Positions 9,808 through 22,215 of a stretch of 22,215 bases of DNA are shown here, piece by piece. The number at the start of each line of letters is the position of its first letter. Within the stretch, counting starts at the first letter, position 1. The DNA is from a virus. Both the position numbers and the translations under genes were made by a program. Under the pieces are notes generated by a model. That model made no database searches, was not told the origin of the DNA, and saw nothing but the letters and a program-made list of their open reading frames with translations. The stretch lies in the IMG/VR virus record IMGVR_UViG_3300010300_000128, positions 1-22,215 of that record, one strand, 5' to 3'.

Positions 9808-9815
9808 GATAAATA
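9808..9815 (+). promoter_or_regulatory. Late-promoter-like octamer GATAAATA
   Basis: GATAAATA follows the gp4 stop directly and ends 28 nt before the next ATG (9844). It is 7 of 8 to the T4 late consensus and identical to the octamer upstream of gp25 on the other strand. It lies in a small dyad (GATAA...TTATC). A plausible late promoter for the plus-strand tail genes. Confidence 0.5.
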
Positions 9816-11915: not shown

Positions 11916-12091
11916 GCCTCGGTCACGACAGCTTGGCTAACCTTTATTATGTTAATTTTGCCTTGATGCAGTACCACAAGTACTCGTTGACCGAATTAGA
12001 AGAGATGATACCATTTGAGAGAGACATCTATCTAAATATGTTAATACAACACTTAGATCAAGAACGAGAACGGTTAGCAAAAAATGGCTGA
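11202..12091 (+). CDS. Predicted -1 frameshift product of gp26 (about 296 aa)
   Basis: If ribosomes slip back one base at T TTT TTC (11903-11909), 236 gp26 residues are joined to 60 residues read from 11909, ending at TGA 12089-12091. The added part reads RISLGHDSLANLYYVNFALM, then QYHKYSLTELEEMIPFERDI and YLNMLIQHLDQERERLAKNG. IPFERDIYLNMLIQHL is typical of tail-assembly T-segments, and such extensions usually bind the tape measure. The -1 frame is closed upstream by TAA at 11867, and its only ATG (11966) has no ribosome site and would yield just 41 residues. The end overlaps the tape-measure start by 8 nt, as in many chaperone-tape measure pairs. It occupies the place where other annotations may put gp51; no resemblance to T4 gp51 was established. 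Confidence 0.72.
11903..11909 (+). promoter_or_regulatory. Slippery heptamer TTTTTTC for -1 frameshifting
   Basis: The heptamer has the X-XXY-YYZ form in the gp26 frame (T TTT TTC), allowing both tRNAs to re-pair on TTT TTT. It sits two codons before the 0-frame stop. A small AGCC...GGCT stem is possible downstream (about 11915-11937), but no strong stimulatory structure is obvious. Confidence 0.7.
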
Positions 12092-14786
12092 GGCAACACT
12101 ACCTAGCGTCAACGGAGACGGTAAAAGAATTGGCGACGATATTGCTACAGTACGTCAGTACGTAGAAGAAATAATTACCGTCAATAAAAACGTTTTATCA
12201 ACTCAAACTGAAAGTCTTAAGAATCTTAAGTCAATCGATTCTGTTCTCATAGGTGTTAATTCTGCATTGAATCAAATGCTTGATTTTATGATAGGTCGAG
12301 CTGATATTGAAGACAGAAATCGTCAGACTGATATGGCGCTTGCTGAAGAGAATCGTCGCGAAGCACAACGCGCTAGAGGTGAGAGTCGTGCAGGAGCAGC
12401 TCCTGTCAAAGTATCAAAATCAGATTTGCCTGAACTAGGTTTTGCTGATCTTCTTGGTCTGCCATTACTTGCTTCTATCGTTACAAGTATTTTTGGTTCA
12501 GATGATTTTATGCGAGTCCCTGCATATTTAACTGCATTAGGACAATCAATTCGCTTATTTACTGAAAACCTAATGAACCTACCAAGGCGATTCGCCGCGT
12601 TAGCAAAATTATGGAATAATGGTACGAGAACCTTTTCTACTTTTATGGGTAAGTTCTTAACAGGCGGTTTCTTTAAACCTATCATTGACTGGTTTAGATC
12701 TGTACCTCGTGCAATAGGTGATATGCTCAAGAAGAATAATATAACAAAAGTATTCTCGTCTATATTTAAAGGTGCGAGTACTATGCTTAAACCTGTTATG
12801 GATGTCTTTAAAGGTATTGGAAGTTTCTTTGGTGCTGTAGGTAGAATGTTAAAACCTATTGCTGCTCTTGGCGGAGCTGCGTTAAGACTGTTGGGCAAAC
12901 TAGCGCTACCTATTACTATTATTTTTGGTATTATTGACGGTATTACAGGTTTTGTTAAAGAGTTTGCAGCTACTGGTTCTATCGTAGAAGGTATTAAAGG
13001 GGCACTAGTTGGTATTGTTGACGGCTTCTTTGGCACTCTAGCTGAATTCTTAGGTGATGCATTAGACTGGATTCTTAATAAAATTACATTTGGTCTATAT
13101 GACGGTAATCTGTTTGGTAGTCTGGGTGAATGGCTTTCAGGTGCAATCGAAAAAAGCGTAAGAGGTATGTTTGATGTCGTAGTTGGAATCTTTACTTTAG
13201 ATTGGGACCGTATCAAACAAGGCCTTGGTAGTATTGCTAGTATCTTTATTGGTGAAGACGGTTTTGTAACACAAGCTTGGGAATGGGTTAAAGGTCTTTT
13301 CACCTGGTCTGACCCTAACGGTGAAGAAAGATCATTACTTACAATTGTAGGTGATGCATTAGATGAAGTTTGGAATTGGTTAGGAGAACTGTTCGATCCT
13401 AAACGTATTATTCGTGCTATGCTTCCCGATCCTAGCTCAGCAGCAGCTATTCTTATTCCCAATTCATTATACGAATATGCTGGTATTAACCCAGAAACTG
13501 GTGAAGTAGAAACACCAGCTCAACGTAATATCAAAGAAGCTCAAGATGAAATTCAAGCTTCACAAGAGCGTTTACAAGCTTTAGAAGCAGAGAGAGAAGC
13601 TCCTTCAGATATGGAAGGCCAGCGCACGGTGCTTGAGGAAGAGCTTGTACGTCTACGTAATCAAAGAGAAGAAGCTCCTGTAGAGGACGGCTGGTTTACT
13701 ACTACGAAAGCTGAATATGATGAGATGATCGCTGATAGAGAAGCTCGTCTCGCTACATTGCAAGAACAAGTAAGTACCCGTCAAGCTGAAATTGATGCTC
13801 AAATTGCTGAAGAGCGTAGAGTGCAAGAAAGAGCTGCTCGTAGAATTACCGGTGTACAGACAGGTGATGGCGCTGTTCCTGAGCCTACAGAACCAGAAGA
13901 TGTTGCTGCTGTTTTAGAGGGTAGAGAACCTGAACAACGTAGAGGTGCAGTTATTCCACCTCAATCAGGCGAGCAGGTTGTCCCAGCAAGAGGCACAGGT
14001 GAGGTTACACCAAGAGGTGCAATGGCTATTCCTGGTGCAGTTCAGGTTGTCCCAGCAAGAGGCACAGGTGAGGTTACACCAAGAGGTGCGATGGCTATTC
14101 CTGGTACAGGTGAGGTTACACCAAGAGGTACAGGTGAGGTTACACCAAGAGGTGCAATGGCTATTCCTGGTGCAGTTCAGGTTGTCCCGGCAAGAGGTAC
14201 AGGTGAGGTTACACCAAGAGGTGCGATGGCTATTCCTAGTGCTGGTTCTGCACAAACAGCTCCTGCAGCTGCTCCTGCTGAAGAAGCCATTGCAGCTCCA
14301 GCTCAACAAGATAGCGACGGTTCATTTAGACTAGCTGGTATGGATTTTGGTGAAGATTCTACAATGAACATCGGCAACATAATGAATGAGCTGGTGGGCG
14401 GTGGTGATGGTTCACTAAGCAGAGAAGGATTATTTGCACCAAGTCCTTTAACAGGTAGATCATTTAATGATGCATTTGCTGCTGTTACGGGTCAAAATAT
14501 TGAAGATGTAGATGCAGCAAGAGAAGAGCTGTTTAGACGTTACCAGGGTCCAGAAGACTTTAGTATTACTGGCAGGGCTGTTAACAATGGTTCTACATCT
14601 ATTGCAGCTGCTAGAGAAGAAAGAATGAGTGGATCTGGTTCTGTAGTATCTGCACCAACTGATAATAGTACAAACGTTACTAATGTATCTAACCAGACAA
14701 CAGTTGTTGGATCAACTAATCCAAGATCTAATGAGCCTACTATTATGGCTACAATTGCTTGTCATTACGATACTTGTTTCGGATAA
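12084..14786 (+). CDS. Tail tape-measure protein (gp29 position)
   Basis: A 900-aa protein that fits the tape measure: longest gene of the cluster, placed right after the gp26 frameshift pair. An N-terminal coiled-coil-like region (about 1-110) is followed by a Phe/Gly/Lys-rich amphipathic region (about 130-440) with hydrophobic stretches such as LALPITIIFGIIDGITGFVK near 272-291, typical of tape measures that insert in membranes. A charged coiled coil follows at about 475-590 (EIQASQERLQALEAEREA). Then come near-perfect repeats of VVPARGTGEVTPRGAMAIP at about 632-718, and a Ser/Asn/Thr-rich C terminus ending CHYDTCFG. The T4 equivalent is gp29, but similarity is structural rather than clearly sequence-level. 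Confidence 0.85.
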   Translation: MAEATLPSVNGDGKRIGDDIATVRQYVEEIITVNKNVLSTQTESLKNLKSIDSVLIGVNSALNQMLDFMIGRADIEDRNRQTDMALAEENRREAQRARGESRAGAAPVKVSKSDLPELGFADLLGLPLLASIVTSIFGSDDFMRVPAYLTALGQSIRLFTENLMNLPRRFAALAKLWNNGTRTFSTFMGKFLTGGFFKPIIDWFRSVPRAIGDMLKKNNITKVFSSIFKGASTMLKPVMDVFKGIGSFFGAVGRMLKPIAALGGAALRLLGKLALPITIIFGIIDGITGFVKEFAATGSIVEGIKGALVGIVDGFFGTLAEFLGDALDWILNKITFGLYDGNLFGSLGEWLSGAIEKSVRGMFDVVVGIFTLDWDRIKQGLGSIASIFIGEDGFVTQAWEWVKGLFTWSDPNGEERSLLTIVGDALDEVWNWLGELFDPKRIIRAMLPDPSSAAAILIPNSLYEYAGINPETGEVETPAQRNIKEAQDEIQASQERLQALEAEREAPSDMEGQRTVLEEELVRLRNQREEAPVEDGWFTTTKAEYDEMIADREARLATLQEQVSTRQAEIDAQIAEERRVQERAARRITGVQTGDGAVPEPTEPEDVAAVLEGREPEQRRGAVIPPQSGEQVVPARGTGEVTPRGAMAIPGAVQVVPARGTGEVTPRGAMAIPGTGEVTPRGTGEVTPRGAMAIPGAVQVVPARGTGEVTPRGAMAIPSAGSAQTAPAAAPAEEAIAAPAQQDSDGSFRLAGMDFGEDSTMNIGNIMNELVGGGDGSLSREGLFAPSPLTGRSFNDAFAAVTGQNIEDVDAAREELFRRYQGPEDFSITGRAVNNGSTSIAAAREERMSGSGSVVSAPTDNSTNVTNVSNQTTVVGSTNPRSNEPTIMATIACHYDTCFG
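13977..14238 (+). repeat. In-frame tandem repeats in the tape-measure gene
   Basis: Units encoding VVPARGTGEVTPRGAMAIP start at 13977, 14046 and 14181. The first two are 69 bp apart; between the second and third lies a partial expansion (TGEVTPRG twice, 14103-14180). Copies are nearly identical at DNA level, which indicates recent duplication or slippage. All changes keep the frame. Confidence 0.9.
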
Positions 14787-14816: not shown

Positions 14817-15722
14817 TTAGTCGTCAGCAGCAAGCTTTTCAAAGAACGACATACTATCATCATCGTCATCATCTGTCGCAGCAGACGCAAACGCTGGTGC
14901 AGCAGCGGCTTCAGGCTTAGGTGCTTCAGTAAACTCTACCTCATCAGCAGTACTCATAGTACCACCAGCAGAGCCACCATCAAGACCAAGTACACGATTC
15001 ATCTTAGCTTTAAGCTCATCGTATGACTTGAAGTTCTTAGGATCGACCAACTCTTGTAAAGAGTATTGTGACTTCCAAATCTTCTCAAGCTCGTCATCAT
15101 CTTCTGATAGAGGTCGAGGTGAGTCAAACTCAGACTTATCGTAGTTACGATAGCCTTCTACATTACGAATCTTAAGTTTAAAGTCCGCACCAGTCCAGAG
15201 GTCGAACGGGTTCATTGGGCTTTCATCTTCAAACTCTGGATTCATTGCTTCGTTGAGCTTGTCGAAAATCTTTTTACCAAACCTATAAAGGAATACCTTA
15301 CCTTCATTAGCAGGATTAGCAGGATCTTTTACTACGTAAATATTAACGTAGTAGTTTAGACGACGCTTCTGCTTACGTACTTGATCCTTATTAGACTCAA
15401 TACCTGAGTTCCAAAGCATAGAGTTATACTCTGATACAGGATCTTTCTTATTGAGAGTAGTTAGAGAGTTCTCAATATACCAACCACCCGGTCCTTGGAA
15501 ACCATGATTAAACATACGAACCCAAGGAAGATCTTCACCCTCTGGAGCAGGTAGGAAACGAATAACAGCAAAGCCGTTACCTGCTTTATCTACTTCTGGC
15601 TTCCACAGGTTATCATCTAGCCGGGTTTCACCTGGGCCTGATGTCATCTTAGTTGTTTCTGAGATTAGTGCTTCGAGTGAAGACTTACGATTACTCTTAA
15701 GAGCAGCGAACGAACTTGTCAT
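14817..15722 (-). CDS. 32: Single-stranded DNA-binding protein gp32
   Basis: A 301-aa protein (T4 gp32, 301 aa) that coats ssDNA during replication and recombination. Start chosen at 15722 (MTSSFAALKSNR), with GGAG 6 nt upstream; a longer open frame to 15761 has no ribosome site. Features: basic N-terminal cooperativity arm (about 1-20), OB-fold core (about 30-235) with FAVIRFLPAPEGEDLPWVRM at about 51-70 and NHGFQGPGGWYIENSLTTL at 72-90, and an acidic tail DDDDDDSMSFFEKLAADD (284-301) that recruits partners. The zinc-ribbon cysteines of T4 gp32 are not present: no Cys occurs in the whole protein. gp59, its loader partner, is encoded just upstream. Confidence 0.96.
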   Translation of the reverse strand: MTSSFAALKSNRKSSLEALISETTKMTSGPGETRLDDNLWKPEVDKAGNGFAVIRFLPAPEGEDLPWVRMFNHGFQGPGGWYIENSLTTLNKKDPVSEYNSMLWNSGIESNKDQVRKQKRRLNYYVNIYVVKDPANPANEGKVFLYRFGKKIFDKLNEAMNPEFEDESPMNPFDLWTGADFKLKIRNVEGYRNYDKSEFDSPRPLSEDDDELEKIWKSQYSLQELVDPKNFKSYDELKAKMNRVLGLDGGSAGGTMSTADEVEFTEAPKPEAAAAPAFASAATDDDDDDSMSFFEKLAADD

Positions 15723-15782
15723 ATTTTTCTCCGTATATGCGATGTATTTTCTTATCCACAATATTCATAATAACATGTATAT

Positions 15783-16394
15783 TTAGCTAGTAAATACACT
15801 TTTCATTACCTTTTTATAAGCTTGTAGGTCAACTTGTAAGAAGGGTTTATACTTGTTAGATTTGTCTCTAACAGTACAATACATTATATCATCTTTTAGG
15901 GTAGAGTTCCACTGTTTTGTGAAATTTAATATCCCATCCATGATAGTAAATGTTTCAAGAGATAGATGCTTACCAAGATACTTCCTAAGTAGAGGAGGAT
16001 GAACGGACTTCACCACTTTAAAATACTCATCAAACGAGATGTCTTTGGACTCAATTTCATTGTATATGCTCTCACATTCAGTCTTAAAGTTATATTTTAA
16101 ACTTTCAATACGCTTACGCCATTCTATATAATTTTTCTCACTCTCAGCACCAACTAAAGAGCCTGACCAACTATGGTTGTCATTAAGAAAGTTAGCTACA
16201 AAAAAGTAAACCAACTCTTGCCCTTTATAATTGCGCTCAAGTTTAGCGAAGAAGAATTTGTCTCTACGTTTAAGAAAACTATCACCTGATACTTTTAACT
16301 TTCCATTATATTTAAAATAATCGTAGTTTGATGTGAAGTGATTTCTTATAGCGAGATATGTCTTATAAGCATCTAATCCTTCATAAACATTCAT
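15783..16394 (-). CDS. 59: Helicase loader gp59
   Basis: A 203-aa protein (T4 gp59, 217 aa) that binds fork DNA and gp32 and loads the gp41 helicase. The start MNVYEGLDAYKTYLAIRNHF is typical of the family (short helix plus YxxYLAIKxHF), followed by FLKRRDKFFFAKLERNY (about 40-56) and YFFVANFLNDNHSW (about 63-76). The basic, aromatic-rich composition agrees. Start and upstream stop overlap as ATGA (16391-16394), so translation is coupled with gp33. gp32 follows 60 nt downstream. Confidence 0.92.
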   Translation of the reverse strand: MNVYEGLDAYKTYLAIRNHFTSNYDYFKYNGKLKVSGDSFLKRRDKFFFAKLERNYKGQELVYFFVANFLNDNHSWSGSLVGAESEKNYIEWRKRIESLKYNFKTECESIYNEIESKDISFDEYFKVVKSVHPPLLRKYLGKHLSLETFTIMDGILNFTKQWNSTLKDDIMYCTVRDKSNKYKPFLQVDLQAYKKVMKSVFTS

Positions 16395-16615
16395 ACCGGT
16401 AGCTTTGCAGTCTTCTCTTTCATTAAATTTAATTCAGCACATTCAGCTTCAATCTTTTTCTTTATGATAGTATTGATTAGCTTTGCACCTGTCTCTAGTT
16501 CAATTTCATTCTGCTCACAATACCACATTACGGCATCGAAGTATGATAATCTTTTATCTTTAACAACCTCTTCAATCTTCATTGAGAAGGTTTGTGTGTT
16601 CATTATTTCAACCAT
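16391..16615 (-). CDS. 33: Late transcription co-activator gp33
   Basis: A 74-aa protein (T4 gp33, 112 aa) whose position just before gp59 and sequence (KDKRLSYFDAVMWYCEQNEI at about 19-38, then ETGAKLINTIIKKKIEAECA) match short gp33 proteins of marine T4-like phages. gp33 bridges host RNA polymerase, the gp55 sigma-like protein and the sliding clamp at TATAAATA promoters. The start could also be the internal ATG at 16603; neither has a strong ribosome site (AGAGG lies about 14 nt upstream of 16615). Octamers fitting its target sequence occur in this window. Confidence 0.8.
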   Translation of the reverse strand: MVEIMNTQTFSMKIEEVVKDKRLSYFDAVMWYCEQNEIELETGAKLINTIIKKKIEAECAELNLMKEKTAKLPV

Positions 16616-16638: not shown

Positions 16639-17124
16639 TCATTGATTCTGCCTGTAAAATACATGTGAGCCGATTCGACCAACAAGTTGCAACCTCTGTG
16701 CCCAAGCAGGGCTAACATATGTGGCGTGATAATGAGTGCAGCCTTCAGTAATGCCGCGATAGGTACTGTTAAAATACATATTAGATGCTACATCGATAGC
16801 ATGCCACCATGCATCGTTTGTTGCAATATTAGGAATACGGTCTGATTTTCCATCACAATACCAACTAAATTGACACTGATGGCGAATCATATTACCGTTT
16901 GAATCTTGACGACCTTGTTTGACCACATCACATATTGTATTAGGATAGTCTGCGCTATATACTCGATTAAGAGTAACATCAGCAACAGCAGCTTGCCCAG
17001 CTAAACTATCACTTCTTGCCTCGAAGTAAATGTTTTTAGCCAGGCAATCTATCTCTTCCATTTCATTCGCATGTACTAGCGAACCAAACATAACAAAACC
17101 AATAATCAGCAAAAGCTGTTTCAT
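16639..17124 (-). CDS. Exported SleB-type cell-wall hydrolase (endolysin candidate)
   Basis: Start at 17124 (MKQLLLIIGFVMFGSLVHAN), with AGGAG 7 nt upstream. 161 aa with a Sec-type signal peptide or signal-anchor (1 to about 19). The rest is a SleB/CwlJ hydrolase domain: NIYFEARSDSLAGQAAVADV (31-50) with E35 the likely catalytic acid, LNRV, then QCQFSWYCDGKSD (83-95) and AWWHAIDVASNMY (105-117). These enzymes cleave the glycan of peptidoglycan. The export signal implies action from the periplasm, possibly without a classical holin. It precedes gp33-gp59-gp32 in the same direction, behind a host-type promoter. Confidence 0.9.
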   Translation of the reverse strand: MKQLLLIIGFVMFGSLVHANEMEEIDCLAKNIYFEARSDSLAGQAAVADVTLNRVYSADYPNTICDVVKQGRQDSNGNMIRHQCQFSWYCDGKSDRIPNIATNDAWWHAIDVASNMYFNSTYRGITEGCTHYHATYVSPAWAQRLQLVGRIGSHVFYRQNQ

Positions 17125-17150
17125 AACAAATCTCCTCATTCTCATATCTT

Positions 17151-17728: not shown

Positions 17729-17855
17729 TAGATTTCTCCTTACAATTATCTCCATGCCATCTACCATAAACGTTTTTTGCTATGTGCTCGTGGCAATGTG
17801 GGCATTCTATTTTATCATGTGATTTACCTTTAAATGCAATTGTATCATTTCTCAT
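17721..17855 (-). CDS. 44-aa zinc-finger protein
   Basis: Start ATG at 17853-17855, stop TAA at 17721-17723. The product contains IECPHCHEHIAKNVYGRWHG then DNC: a CxxC plus WHxxxC motif, the layout of the small zinc knuckles found in many phage proteins and near phage HNH nucleases. AAGG lies about 9 nt upstream. It overlaps the stop of the 760-aa gene upstream and the start of the 181-aa gene downstream by 8 nt, which fits tight operon packing. A nucleic-acid-binding regulator is the natural guess; no direct evidence. Confidence 0.75.
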   Translation of the reverse strand: MRNDTIAFKGKSHDKIECPHCHEHIAKNVYGRWHGDNCKEKSNV

Positions 17856-20127
17856 ATTGTGACCTTACCATCTCTCGATGTACTGCGTCACTTGCTCCAT
17901 TAAATAGTCTTGCATTCGGGTTATCATAATTTTTTTGGCCAGCGTAAATATCTTTTGGTTTATAAAATTTACCGCTTGGCATTTGAGGCTGTTGATACGC
18001 TCTAAAGTTAGGATTATAACCTAGTAATGCTGCTTGTGCATCTTCCGAGTCATCCCCAGCTAAAGCTTTTTCAACTAAATTGTCTTCTTTTGCATTCTGC
18101 TCTTCGTAACTTTCTTCTGCTGATTCTTCTGCAATCTCTTCAGCTTGTGTTACAATATCTCTAGCTACCTTCTCAGTTATTTCGTTTAGTATCTGAGTTA
18201 ACGGATTGCTAAGATCAGTCAAATCGATTTTTGATAATGTTGTTTCAACACCACCTTCTATACTACCGTTCTGCGATGTGTTAAACGTATCATTGATATT
18301 ATTATTAAACACATCTTCGATAGTATCAGCCCCATTTATCCCATCGTCTCCGCTGTTGTTTATACCAGTTATATCTACATTATCGTTCATTATATCAGCA
18401 GCGCTAAGCTGATTCTCTGCAGTCTCTGTACCTGTATCTCCTGATATCGATACATCTATACTAGTACCAACACCACTAATATCAGCCCCAGTAATACCAT
18501 CGCTTGACATACCTATCTGCATACTACTATCTACACTAGATTGACTGTCAGATGATTGACTAGACATATCATCCACACCACCGCTGATAGCATTAGAGAC
18601 AACATCAGTTAATGTACCATTAGCATTTGAAATACCGTCTGATGTTAAATCAGATGATACACCGCCAGATTCCGATAATCCAATACTAGAACTTCCTGTA
18701 GCTTGTGTTGCTGCTGTTGACTCGGCTGCAGCTGTTGTACCAGCTGCAATATCTAGAGCCATTAATTGATTAGCATTTAATCCACCACCAGATTTTTTTT
18801 CTTCTGAAGATGAAGTTGGATCAGCTTCCATCGCAACTTCGCTGCTTTGTTCAACTTCCCCTGTGCCAGTTTCTTCAACTACTTCCGGTGTAGATTCTGC
18901 AACTTGTTCATTTATTATCTCCTGTATAGGTTCCTGTACTATTGTTTCCTGCGCTACTATCTCAACGTTAATACTACCATCATTAGCTACTACATCTGTC
19001 GTTCCAATATTAGCAACATCTGCTACTGTTGTAGCTGCATTCATTTGATCTAACATCGCTGTTTGATAACCAGGGCAGTTCATATCGTACAATGGGTTAT
19101 TTTGACACATTTGATCAAACAACATTTGCTCTGTGTTATCAACAATAATAGGTCTATATTTTAATTTTACATTAGGGTTATTAAATTCAGGACCATACCA
19201 CCCATCCCAATTACCAATATCTTGACCTGTAACTTGTAGCATAACACTATCAAGTGTTTTTAAATCAAACGGTGCATCGAAGTTTTCTTCTCCAGACATA
19301 TTTACCCGAGTATCAATCCAATATGAATAATCATATTCTTTTTCATAGACAGTTTTACCACCATTATCTTTAATTGATATTGTTACTTTTAACGTGTCTT
19401 GAGCATTCACACCGTTTGTTGATTCAAAATTTGCATCAGCGTTTTTTACCAACCATGAATATGTGTATCCGGTTGTCTCAAGACCAGCGTTTTTTAAAGC
19501 TGTATCAATTGCAGATACCTGTGTAAGGGTTTGTTGCATATACCCCCAGTTAATCTGATTGGAATCATTATTAATAATAGGACACTCACCCCCACCTGCA
19601 CCTTGATTATCAGCCCATGTTGAGCCTGTACCGGTAGCAAAGCAACCAGACCAATAGGTTGAACCAGTTCCAAAAATGTTAGTTTCATCATCAACGACAC
19701 CAACAAACGACTGCTGGTCTTGATAAATGCCGATGGGTGCAGGATCAGGCTCTGCGATTAAATTAAGATCGGAGAAGCTATACCATTCTATGTTCTGATA
19801 GTTTGTATTATTATAAAAAGCACATTGGCTAGGCTGAATAGCATTATAGACAGCAAATGGTGTACCACCGTAGCTGCCACCATCATACATAAAGCAGAAA
19901 CCATCGTCTGTAGTGTCGCCATTGTTAGCATCGCCGGCTAGCATCCAATGCCAATCGGTTAACGTAGAATCGCTGTAGAGACCACTCTCATCTAGTGTTG
20001 TTTTATAATAATCGATATCGTTGTTCCATACCCAATTATTATAATCGCCAACTGCGAAGACTGGATTAGAGAGCGAGCAGAATAAGAGTGATAAGACCGC
20101 CAGCGACAGCGCCTTCAACTTTATCAT
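17845..20127 (-). CDS. Large exported protein with CPGY motif and Ser/Gly/Asp-rich repeats
   Basis: 760 aa. A clear Sec signal peptide (MIKLKALSLAVLSLLFCSLS then NPVFA, cleavage near 25). Residues about 26-335 form a Trp/Tyr/Asn-rich extracellular-type domain. At about 347-362 is CQNNPLYDMNCPGYQTAM, a motif recurring in exported or fibre-like proteins of marine T4-like phages. Then come an acidic Glu/Val/Thr stretch (about 385-440), a long low-complexity Ser/Gly/Asp/Asn region (about 470-640, with DGINGAD-like units reminiscent of calcium-binding repeats), an acidic helix, and a conserved C-terminal block (AQAALLGYNPNFRAYQQPQM, then SDAVHREMVRSQYEK). It follows and overlaps the Asn/Thr-rich gene by 62 nt. 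Function unknown; surface, adhesion or superinfection roles are possible. Confidence 0.85.
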   Translation of the reverse strand: MIKLKALSLAVLSLLFCSLSNPVFAVGDYNNWVWNNDIDYYKTTLDESGLYSDSTLTDWHWMLAGDANNGDTTDDGFCFMYDGGSYGGTPFAVYNAIQPSQCAFYNNTNYQNIEWYSFSDLNLIAEPDPAPIGIYQDQQSFVGVVDDETNIFGTGSTYWSGCFATGTGSTWADNQGAGGGECPIINNDSNQINWGYMQQTLTQVSAIDTALKNAGLETTGYTYSWLVKNADANFESTNGVNAQDTLKVTISIKDNGGKTVYEKEYDYSYWIDTRVNMSGEENFDAPFDLKTLDSVMLQVTGQDIGNWDGWYGPEFNNPNVKLKYRPIIVDNTEQMLFDQMCQNNPLYDMNCPGYQTAMLDQMNAATTVADVANIGTTDVVANDGSINVEIVAQETIVQEPIQEIINEQVAESTPEVVEETGTGEVEQSSEVAMEADPTSSSEEKKSGGGLNANQLMALDIAAGTTAAAESTAATQATGSSSIGLSESGGVSSDLTSDGISNANGTLTDVVSNAISGGVDDMSSQSSDSQSSVDSSMQIGMSSDGITGADISGVGTSIDVSISGDTGTETAENQLSAADIMNDNVDITGINNSGDDGINGADTIEDVFNNNINDTFNTSQNGSIEGGVETTLSKIDLTDLSNPLTQILNEITEKVARDIVTQAEEIAEESAEESYEEQNAKEDNLVEKALAGDDSEDAQAALLGYNPNFRAYQQPQMPSGKFYKPKDIYAGQKNYDNPNARLFNGASDAVHREMVRSQYEK

Positions 20128-21238
20128 TTCTTCTTGTCTCCTGTTCGATGTTCTCTGGCTTCAGATCAGGGTTTTCATCCCACTGTTGCGTAGCTTCAGC
20201 GCCAATTGTACCCATAAACGGACAAGGAGTACCGGCCATCTCCATAGCTTTATAGACCGTTGCTTCTTGACACATTAAAGAAACAGCAGCAACTTTCATA
20301 CCCATGTTATAAAGAGTCTTTGCATTCTTTAAACGCTCACAATTAAGGTCTCTAATATGACCACCACCTGACATACCTAAAATCTGAGTCTGAACAGCTG
20401 CGGAGAATGTAACCGTACATGTATCATTACCACCAGGCATAATTGTTGGAGCAATCGCTGACGGTGGAGGTGATTCAATCTTCTGTGTAATAATACTATT
20501 GTTAGTATTCATATTATTGTTATTGTTAGTATTGTTCGCTGTACTATCAATAGTAGTATTATTAGTGTTGTTGTTCGTATTTGTATTTGTATTGTTAGAT
20601 GTAACGTTACTTGTACTATTTACAGTTTGATTAATATTAGAATTTGTATTCTGATTTACTGTCTGATTAATATTTGAATCGGTTGTTTGATTAATGGTAG
20701 TATTGTTAGTATTGTTATTCGTATTTGTGTTATTAGAAGTAACGTTACTTGTACTATTTACAGTTTGATCTACAGTGCTTGTGCTTGTATTAATATTTGT
20801 ATTAGTGTTGTTAGTACCACCACTCATAATATTATTATTTGTATTAACATTAGTGCTAGTACTTGTACCAGTATAATTTGTATTATTGGTATTTGTATTA
20901 GTATTAATATTAGTGTTCGTTGATGTAGAATCTACGGTACTAGTATTAGTGTTAAAATTATTATTTGTGTTCGTGCTTGTACTAGTATTAGTATTGGTAT
21001 TAATATTAGTATTTGTAGCGGTAGAATCTAACGTAGTCGTGTTGACATTAGTATTCGTACTATCAATTATAGTATTGTTAGTATTGGTGTTGTTAGATGT
21101 TACAGTGCTTGTAGATGTAGTATCACTGCCCGTTCCAACATAGCTGGACGAGTCATATGTAATACCATCTACAGTAGTTTGCGCTAATGTCACCGAACCG
21201 AACATAATAAAGAGCGCAACCATGAATATTCTCTTCAT
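20066..21238 (-). CDS. Exported Asn/Thr-rich low-complexity protein with C-terminal membrane segment
   Basis: 390 aa; GGAG lies 6 nt before the ATG at 21238. Signal peptide MKRIFMVALFIMFGSVTLA (1-19). Residues about 35-255 are almost wholly Asn, Thr, Ser, Val and Ile (for example TNTNINTNTNTSTSTNTNNN), with alternating polar/beta-branched pattern and mixed synonymous codons. A conserved-looking domain follows (about 256-360) with four Cys: TCTVTFSAAVQTQILGMSGG, DLNCERLKNAKTLYNMGMKV, LMCQE, GTPCPF. The protein ends in a hydrophobic segment (VAGGLITLILLAL). The pattern resembles amyloid or beta-solenoid proteins (curli-like in a loose sense); no specific family is claimed. A perfect TATAAATA lies 58 nt upstream of the start. 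Confidence 0.85.
   Translation of the reverse strand: MKRIFMVALFIMFGSVTLAQTTVDGITYDSSSYVGTGSDTTSTSTVTSNNTNTNNTIIDSTNTNVNTTTLDSTATNTNINTNTNTSTSTNTNNNFNTNTSTVDSTSTNTNINTNTNTNNTNYTGTSTSTNVNTNNNIMSGGTNNTNTNINTSTSTVDQTVNSTSNVTSNNTNTNNNTNNTTINQTTDSNINQTVNQNTNSNINQTVNSTSNVTSNNTNTNTNNNTNNTTIDSTANNTNNNNNMNTNNSIITQKIESPPPSAIAPTIMPGGNDTCTVTFSAAVQTQILGMSGGGHIRDLNCERLKNAKTLYNMGMKVAAVSLMCQEATVYKAMEMAGTPCPFMGTIGAEATQQWDENPDLKPENIEQETRRNDKVEGAVAGGLITLILLAL
20480..21130. repeat. Low-complexity Asn/Thr codon repeat region
   Basis: A long run of AAT/AAC and ACT/ACA/ACC codons (minus strand) inside the 390-aa gene. A 31-bp perfect direct copy occurs at 20601-20631 and 20739-20769 (138 bp apart), encoding QTVNSTSNVT in each. 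Elsewhere codon choice is scrambled, so the repeat is conserved at protein rather than DNA level. Confidence 0.85.
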
Positions 21239-21295: not shown

Positions 21296-21303
21296 TATTT
21301 ATA
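21296..21303 (-). promoter_or_regulatory. Late promoter TATAAATA upstream of the Asn/Thr-rich gene
   Basis: The minus strand reads TATAAATA, a perfect T4 late consensus, 58 nt before the ATG at 21238 and just after the tmRNA terminator. It should drive the two exported-protein genes late in infection. Confidence 0.7.
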
Positions 21304-21332
21304 TAAAAAAAGAGGGCGCGAGGCCCTCTTTT
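21304..21332 (-). terminator. Intrinsic terminator after the tmRNA
   Basis: Stem AAAAGAGGGC (21308-21317) pairs with GCCCTCTTTT (21323-21332) around a 5-nt loop. On the minus strand the hairpin is followed by a T-run (21304-21310). It ends the tRNA-Bfd-tmRNA transcript. The plus strand also has a short T-run but no gene to terminate. Confidence 0.9.
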
Positions 21333-21371
21333 CCTAGTCGTTGGGTAATAAGGTGACTAGCCCCAATCAGT

Positions 21372-21416
21372 TTACGCAGCTAAGCGAAGATCCTGATAGT
21401 AAACGTCATCATTTGC
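21372..21416 (-). other. tmRNA tag reading frame, ANDDVYYQDLRLAA
   Basis: GCA resume codon at 21414-21416, 14 codons, TAA at 21372-21374. The start AND and the end LAA are the conserved tag ends; LAA is recognised by ClpXP. The tag is acidic to neutral and contains two tyrosines in a row. With the alanine carried by the tmRNA itself, the added tag would be 15 residues. Confidence 0.92.
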
Positions 21417-21506
21417 GTTTATTTTATTTTGTTGCGTTTACGGTAGCTCCTACACCGGCTCTCCACTTACTTACTTACAACCCTGTCGAACCTGTTCATC
21501 CCCATC

Positions 21507-21599
21507 AAGAGCATATTCTTTGCTTCCCACTACGGCGCATTAAGTGCTTTATGTGAATCTGATTCTAAACGTACCTTACAACACTCAGAATATGCTCTT
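21507..21599. repeat. 12-bp inverted repeat of the tmRNA precursor
   Basis: AAGAGCATATTC (21507-21518) and GAATATGCTCTT (21588-21599) are perfect complements. In the minus-strand precursor they extend the acceptor stem through a 3x3 internal loop (GAT opposite ACC), so the two pieces are held together until the ~70-nt loop between is removed. The second arm includes the final A of CCA. Confidence 0.9.
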
Positions 21600-21650
21600 G
21601 GTGGAGATGGGGAGAATCGCACTCCCGTCCAAGATCACTTTTAGTTTGCT

Positions 21651-21806
21651 TCAACGAATTCTTTTTTCAAGAACCTCAACCTCAGCATCAACTCGTTTCT
21701 GCCAAGACTCTTGTGTTCTGTTACCCTTCTCAAAGAACTTTGCTTTACGCAGGTTATCTAATGCAACCTGCCTGCGGTTATTTATATTCTGTGATTTTCT
21801 TTTCAT
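21651..21806 (-). CDS. Small basic hypothetical protein, 51 aa
   Basis: Start ATG at 21804-21806, overlapping the upstream stop as ATGA; stop TGA at 21651-21653, directly before the tmRNA acceptor piece. It reads MKRKSQNINNRRQVALDNLR then KAKFFEKGNRTQESWQKRVD, a charged, probably helical protein. I recognise no family. The coupling and regular composition support a real gene. Confidence 0.65.
   Translation of the reverse strand: MKRKSQNINNRRQVALDNLRKAKFFEKGNRTQESWQKRVDAEVEVLEKRIR
21779..21786 (-). promoter_or_regulatory. Late-promoter-like TATAAATA upstream of the tmRNA
   Basis: The minus strand reads TATAAATA, a perfect late octamer, inside the 51-aa gene and about 140 nt before the tmRNA acceptor piece. 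It could give a late transcript of the tmRNA alone. It may also be chance in codons for Asn-Ile-Asn. Confidence 0.45.
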
Positions 21807-22006
21807 CCTAGTTCCTTTTCTCTATTCTTTCTCAACGTTCTGGCAACAATCTCATTTGCCGCTTTGTCCAACAGGGTGTACACATCAAAGACCTGTTGAT
21901 CTGTTAAAGCAAAGTTTACTCCACCTTTATGAAGCACATACTTACCGTTCTTCTCGTTGTAAGAAATACTTACCGTTTCTTGGTTGGCATCTTTCTGAAC
22001 GACCAT
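21803..22006 (-). CDS. Small hypothetical protein, 67 aa
   Basis: Reads MVVQKDANQETVSISYNEKN, then GKYVLHKGGVNFALTDQQVF, then a helix DVYTLLDKAANEIVARTLRK. A beta-hairpin plus helix plan is likely; no known family recognised. A purine-rich AAGGGG lies about 9 nt before the ATG. The start lies 65 nt inside the Bfd-like gene in another frame, and the stop overlaps the 51-aa gene start. Confidence 0.7.
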   Translation of the reverse strand: MVVQKDANQETVSISYNEKNGKYVLHKGGVNFALTDQQVFDVYTLLDKAANEIVARTLRKNREKELG

Positions 22007-22175
22007 TCGTCAAACCCCTTTCCTTTTTCAAATTGAACTGCTTATCAGTTCCTGGGTAGCAACCTTTTTCAATCCACTCAATACACCTGCCGCATCTGGT
22101 GCCACACTTTTGCATCAGGGAAGAATCTTCCTTGATCATGGTTTCCGTAATGGCGTTACAAATACAAATGTACAT
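21942..22175 (-). CDS. Bfd-like [2Fe-2S] protein
   Basis: 77 aa. MYICICNAITETMIKE at the start and CGTRCGRCIEWIEKGC at about 24-39 give the CxC...CxxC set (C4, C6, C28, C31) of BFD-type [2Fe-2S] domains, as in bacterioferritin-associated ferredoxin, where it reduces stored ferric iron for release. The helix between the Cys pairs is shorter than in E. coli Bfd, and residues about 45-77 form a charged tail that shares DNA with the next gene in another frame. The ATG lies only 6 nt from the tRNA 3' end, with no ribosome site except within the tRNA. The real function in the phage is open. Confidence 0.75.
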   Translation of the reverse strand: MYICICNAITETMIKEDSSLMQKCGTRCGRCIEWIEKGCYPGTDKQFNLKKERGLTNGRSERCQPRNGKYFLQREER

Positions 22176-22181
22176 AACGTT

Positions 22182-22215
22182 TGGCGTCCCAGGAGAGATT
22201 CGAACTCCCGACCAA
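22182..22215 (-). tRNA. 3' part of a tRNA, cut by the window edge
   Basis: On the minus strand: GGTC, T arm GGGAG-TTCGAAT-CTCTC (22193-22209), acceptor strand CTGGGAC (22186-22192), discriminator G and encoded CCA (22182-22184). The anticodon lies outside the window, so the amino acid cannot be told. It is transcribed in the same direction as the Bfd-like gene and the tmRNA. Confidence 0.88.

Follow-up and report, generated by a model that had tools for sequence, protein, structure and literature searches.

A complete, beta-like circularly permuted tmRNA gene upstream of the late-transcription genes of a T4-like phage

Here, we describe a circularly permuted tmRNA gene in the window, by which we mean the whole stretch of DNA analysed (a linear viral record; 22,215 bases, 38% G+C). 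ARAGORN called a single gene in the window, a minus-strand permuted tmRNA (tmRNA*) whose tag is ANDDVYYQDLRLAA. By cmscan, the same locus matches the full RF04321 tmRNA_permuted model (1-213, window 21372-21659 (-)) with 104 bits (E 1.2e-19) against a cut-off of 47 bits, so that the covariance-model check proposed in an earlier note on this DNA returned a hit. Together with a full-length alignment to the beta model, these calls confirm that note's central claim of a complete permuted tmRNA. Moreover, the predicted fold of the region is more stable than 100/100 shuffles (z -4.0). Read on the minus strand, the gene consists of GGAC, the T arm, CAUCUCC-ACCA, a 95-nt spacer, GGGGAUG...GGUUCGAC, the tag frame, a pseudoknot and a terminator (Table 1), the same order that the note had given with T arm and CCA first, then spacer, tag frame and terminator. 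The note had the right locus; however, its extent of 21333-21645 trimmed both ends of the gene, and the strand was left unstated. The acceptor stem has 7 bp with the alanine identity pair G3.U70 and the CCA present, and the tag frame has an alanine resume codon and a hydrophobic-AA end. P2 pairing is imperfect in the covariance alignments, and a simple terminator scan did not list the terminator hairpin, although it is obvious. The tmRNA gene in the window is complete and circularly permuted.

Table 1. Positions of the tmRNA gene, its parts and neighbouring features in the window
Feature	Position	Strand	Basis or remark
Permuted tmRNA gene (ssrA), whole: acceptor piece, intervening segment, coding piece, terminator	about 21305..21660	-	ARAGORN, cmscan, RF01850 alignment
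Acceptor (3') piece, 5' segment AUUCGUUGAAGC...	21599..21660	-	cmscan alignments
GGAC of acceptor piece	21627-21630	-	read from sequence, cmscan alignments
T arm GGGAG-UGCGAUU-CUCCC	21610-21626	-	read from sequence, cmscan alignments
Acceptor 3' strand CAUCUCC	21603-21609	-	read from sequence, cmscan alignments
ACCA	21599-21602	-	read from sequence, cmscan alignments
Intervening segment, 95 nt	21504..21598	-	absent from mature RNA by analogy
Perfect 12-bp helix closing the intervening segment, AGAGCAUAUUCU / AGAAUAUGCUCU	21587-21598 / 21508-21519	-	
Acceptor 5' strand GGGGAUG	21497..21503	-	pairs 7/7 with CAUCUCC
Tag reading frame, resume codon GCA, ANDDVYYQDLRLAA, stop UAA	21372..21416	-	ARAGORN and sequence
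H-type pseudoknot 3' of tag	21334..21366	-	read from sequence; aligned with beta_tmRNA 3' region
Pseudoknot stem UUGGG/CCCAA	21362-21366 with 21341-21345	-	
Pseudoknot stem CUAGUC/GACUAG	21355-21360 with 21334-21339	-	
Rho-independent terminator AAAAGAGGGC-CUCGC-GCCCUCUUUU, 10-bp hairpin and U7 run	21305..21332	-	fold; aligned to last RF01850 hairpin
TATAAATA, T4-type late-promoter-like box just past terminator	21296..21303	-	58 nt before ORF 20066-21238
Second TATAAATA box	21779-21786		
51-aa ORF directly upstream of tmRNA, stop inside tmRNA 5' edge	21651..21806	-	no Pfam match
Low-complexity Asn/Thr-rich protein, secreted-looking, 390 aa	20066..21238	-	homologue at same position in L128 and L218
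Endolysin / cell wall hydrolase	16639..17145	-	PF07486
gp33-like late transcription coactivator	16391..16615	-	PHROG 254
gp59-like helicase loader	15783..16394	-	PHROG 269
gp32-like single-stranded DNA binding protein	14817..15725	-	PHROG 224

The genes around the tmRNA are those of a T4-like phage. PHROGs matches in the window comprise T4-type baseplate, tail, head-closure, gp32, gp59, gp33 and endolysin genes, and the tmRNA lies upstream of endolysin-gp33-gp59-gp32, 4.7 kb from gp33 and on the same strand. No integrase was seen within the 22-kb fragment. The earlier description of a tmRNA in a T4-like phage and not beside an integrase is thereby borne out. The best phage-record matches of the baseplate protein gp6 are Melnitz, Mosig and HTVC008M, at 38-41% identity. 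Two long secreted-looking proteins (17845-20127 and 20066-21238, both on the minus strand) with overlapping ends sit between the tmRNA and the lysis and late-transcription genes; one is the Asn/Thr-rich protein, and the pair gave no Pfam match. No relatives were found of an adjacent 67-aa ORF. Also on the minus strand and upstream of the tmRNA, a tRNA 3' end (T arm and encoded CCA; 22182-22215 (-)) is cut by the window edge, and a 77-aa ORF (21942-22175 (-); MYICICNAIT...CGTRCGRC) resembles a BFD-type [2Fe-2S] ferredoxin, with a weak Pfam match below cut-off. Further away, in-frame repeats (ARGTGEVTPRGAMAIPG) lie at about 13974-14173 inside a 900-aa ORF (12084-14786), where other contigs align in several registers.

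Among the Rfam subtype models, the beta model fits the window gene best. RF01850 aligns over its full length (1-331, window 21306-21705 (-)), taking in the CCUUGUUACC-AA region and the terminator hairpin, with 78.8 bits, which is under its cut-off of 84; this score was found without that cut-off, and at curated thresholds alpha is the sole subtype model listed for the window. The alpha and cyano models had been named in the earlier note as the ones to run: the alpha model RF01849 reached 57.8 bits, which exceeds its cut-off of 50, in a partial match weaker than that to beta, while cyano_tmRNA RF01851 gave 29.9 bits against a cut-off of 70. We dropped the alpha label because the beta model scored higher, although below its own cut-off. 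Since RF01850 is the best of the three subtypes yet below its cut-off, we call the gene beta-like only. The beta score alone is a weak discriminator, as it can be as high as 73 bits in bacterial tmRNAs distant from the beta family, and the model comparison and the tree therefore carry the subtype argument. The beta model is also the best in L096, L097, L183, L192-L194, L216 and L226. The window gene resembles the betaproteobacterial RF01850 tmRNAs in that their model is the best of the three for it and aligns full-length, and two bacterial examples fall in the same tree set; they differ in the T loop (UGCGAUU in the window versus UUCGAUU/UUCAAUU) and in the length of the intervening segment (95 nt versus 30-42 nt). 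Alphaproteobacterial RF01849 tmRNAs share gene order and mechanism class with the window gene; however, they are matched by it only in part and form a separate supported tree set, and nearly all of the 48 sampled alphaproteobacterial genes have, unlike the window, the T loop GGCGGUA or GGCAGUA and the stem CCGGG/CCCGG.

A two-piece tmRNA in a phage is not new in kind because Melnitz and relatives were published with them (PMC9004378), and 3/3 cultured close relatives carry one. In 2022, 53 of 133 distinct phage tmRNA structures were reported to be two-piece, and 50 of these 53 came from marine or aquatic phages (PMC9004378); a tmRNA database paper of 2025 holds 79 phage tmRNA sequences (PMC11915505). 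The window gene is a further, well-supported example of these published phage permuted tmRNAs. Melnitz, Mosig and HTVC008M (a Methylophilales phage and Pelagibacter phages) resemble the window in being T4-like aquatic myophages with a permuted tmRNA upstream of gp33 on the same strand. In contrast to the window, their tmRNAs are alpha-type by best subtype model and their tags differ, and Melnitz has a glutamine riboswitch 3' of the tmRNA, of which none was found in the window. The window case adds a beta-like subtype to a conserved slot upstream of late-transcription genes. More broadly, with tmRNAs encoded by phages, ribosome rescue may be virus-controlled in abundant aquatic phages.

The slot and the RNA recur across phages. 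A permuted tmRNA is present in all three isolates with the closest gp6 (Melnitz, Mosig, HTVC008M) and lacking in four other records with a related gp6. In about 29 distinct phage loci, some fetched with gp59 as bait and others through tmRNA patterns, the tmRNA lies upstream of gp33/gp59 on one strand, often with gp32 and endolysin, and L128 and L218 share the gene order of the window, including a homologue of ORF 20066-21238. No tmRNA was detected in many relatives, most of which are fragments. DNA-level searches of the phage collection recovered nothing beyond chance terminator matches and the T-arm/acceptor segment of Stenotrophomonas and Achromobacter phages. Our script parsed 52 distinct permuted tmRNAs from viral contigs and isolates. 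G3.U70 is present in 52/52, and the acceptor strands pair 7/7, the latter being a parsing requirement; 23 of the 52 were collected without the T-arm/acceptor pattern, i.e., with G3.U70 not imposed, and have nine different acceptor stems among them. The phage T stems comprise 15 sequence combinations, all paired. Tags vary, with the AND start kept and ends of (L/M/I/V)AA; the parsing script demanded an xA end, and most tags are also ARAGORN calls. What is seen directly is the sequence and structure, the family match, a gene order that is kept and an acceptor piece that has diversified with its pairing retained.

The position of late-promoter boxes points to late expression of the tmRNA in many of these phages. 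NATAAATA, the core of T4-type late promoters, lies 40-51 nt before the GGAC of the T-piece in 22/51 phage tmRNAs (e.g., L009, L096, L101, L189, L218 and L238, and Melnitz at 45 nt) and at 95 nt in one more, against a chance expectation of 1.1 for any box within 120 nt; it was found within 80 nt in 0/48 bacterial genes. A late-promoter box is common, not defining, for the permuted tmRNAs of T4-like phages: the window gene has none at 40-51 nt, and its box is found within an ORF, about 156 nt upstream. TATAAATA occurs twice in the whole window against 3.2 expected, i.e., not above chance, and the promoter argument is therefore drawn solely from position across relatives. In the open-access literature, we found no report of a late-promoter position near a phage tmRNA, which is weak evidence of novelty. 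Elsewhere in the window, GATAAATA boxes at 9808 (+) and 4733 (-) precede ORF 9844 and gp25 by about 30-36 nt and are plausible late promoters of the tail operons.

In an unrooted tree of 49 phage, 48 alphaproteobacterial and two betaproteobacterial tmRNAs, the alpha genes group together (100/98); the window gene belongs to a set of 27 phage and two betaproteobacterial genes (99/97). A first tree without betaproteobacterial genes put all the phage genes on one side; the two betaproteobacterial sequences broke that arrangement, and we dropped the idea of a phage-only lineage. These two genes are located among ordinary chromosomal genes, and the beta cut-off was passed by 2/60 sampled genomes of that betaproteobacterial order. 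A genome-wide T-arm/acceptor scan yielded mainly Patescibacteria, in which ARAGORN reads one-piece tmRNAs, and one Rickettsiales, with no near-identical host gene; thus, no recent host donor was seen. The earlier note held that the tmRNA also points to the host lineage. This was not established; the best fit is to the beta subtype, the tree set mixes phage and betaproteobacterial tmRNAs, and the scan gave no near-identical host gene. The nesting of the two betaproteobacterial genes within the 27 phage genes, with only these two bacterial sequences, is the basis for reading the tree as transfer from phages to betaproteobacteria. Such phage-to-host transfer is possible, and the reverse direction is also compatible with the unrooted tree and the two sequences. 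The wider proposal that permuted tmRNAs are an old phage-maintained lineage, late-expressed in many phages, from which betaproteobacteria would have acquired their patchy form, seems to us rather doubtful. The family-wide comparison makes testable whether bacterial permuted tmRNA lineages derive from phages and whether phage tmRNAs are late genes.

We consider it likely that the window gene is a complete, probably functional permuted tmRNA of a lytic T4-like aquatic phage that supplies ordinary trans-translation with host factors. By analogy with established tmRNA biology, from which we take transcription, processing, charging, the use of SmpB and proteases, benefit and timing, the tmRNA would be transcribed as one precursor, in which the intervening segment would be fixed by a helix of its own that stacks close to the acceptor stem. 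Host tRNA-processing enzymes would excise the segment, leaving two RNAs joined by base pairing, and the G3.U70 acceptor would allow charging by the host alanyl-tRNA synthetase (AlaRS). The charged phage tmRNA would then enter stalled ribosomes with host SmpB and free them, and the tag ending in LAA would send the unfinished protein to ClpXP-type proteases of the host. Host SmpB is the likely partner because a search of 12 phage records returned no SmpB, while 10/14 control genomes were positive. The phage would most likely benefit from having tmRNA supplied at a time when many messages are truncated through nuclease activity and host shut-off.

Other explanations have to be weighed against ordinary trans-translation. 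Host DNA misassembled into a phage contig, an objection already foreseen in the earlier note, or a bacterial contig misclassified as viral might be suspected, as permuted tmRNAs are normal in bacteria (in one alphaproteobacterial class, 263/289 sampled genomes score above the RF04321 cut-off) and independent contigs, about 99.8% identical to the window, confirm it no further than position 18738. However, phage genes flank the locus, no other tmRNA in the tree exceeds about 67% identity to this one, and gene, strand and position relative to gp33/gp59 are common to about 29 loci, three cultured phages included. Because position and strand are conserved across phages, misassembly is excluded in practice, and we regard this explanation as extremely improbable. 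That the gene is a host-captured, non-functional relic, to which the imperfect P2 pairing might speak, is quite unlikely: all defining elements are intact, the T stems and the helices of the intervening segments differ in sequence yet stay paired, and the gene is kept at one location across diverged phages.

Two further alternatives grant the RNA a function but a different one. Phage copies of host factors can be competitors, and the window tmRNA might be a decoy or inhibitor of host tmRNA, a role reported for the tag-less tmRNA in mycobacteriophage DS6A (discussed in PMC11915505); a decoy requires no full tag frame, degradation-type end, resume codon or pseudoknot, all of which the window gene has, and we judge this role very improbable. 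The Melnitz authors proposed that an early-acting phage tmRNA tags host proteins for degradation and thereby recycles the host proteome, taking a predicted sigma-70 promoter as their ground for early expression (PMC9004378). Tags that retain an adaptor-like AND start and an LAA end are in line with such recycling, whereas the late box before GGAC in 22/51 phage tmRNAs, Melnitz included, speaks against it, and we hold it to be unlikely.

Intervening segments span 4-493 nt in phages versus 3-165 nt in the 48 bacterial genes of the alphaproteobacterial sample. In phages and in bacteria, the matching arms of the end helix pair better than arms swapped between genomes (0/20,000 permutations each); the end helix is real. 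Some phage segments contain whole protein genes, i.e., an iscU-like gene (PF01592, E 3e-55) and an HNH nuclease (PF01844, E 8e-5), both of whose frames run into the 3' arm of the segment and terminate in its conserved motif UUUAUGAU, and others encode membrane proteins without a significant match. Gene-bearing segments measure 405 nt in L148/L196/L199 (G120), 493 nt in L229 and L252, 361-368 nt in L238, L242, L245 and L248, and 322 nt in L215, and two of the cases were seen more than once, in separate contigs. The 2025 tmRNA database paper (PMC11915505) mentions that such segments can contain a tRNA gene or a repetitive element; we found no report of protein genes within them in the open-access literature, which is weak evidence of novelty. 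In L217 and L241, the intervening segment of the permuted tmRNA is just 4 nt (CCAC). Finally, L195 (G126) has an RF04321 match of 85 bits and a tag frame without the usual AA end (ANNIVAFSRSNTTALV), and lies beside several tRNA-like stretches.
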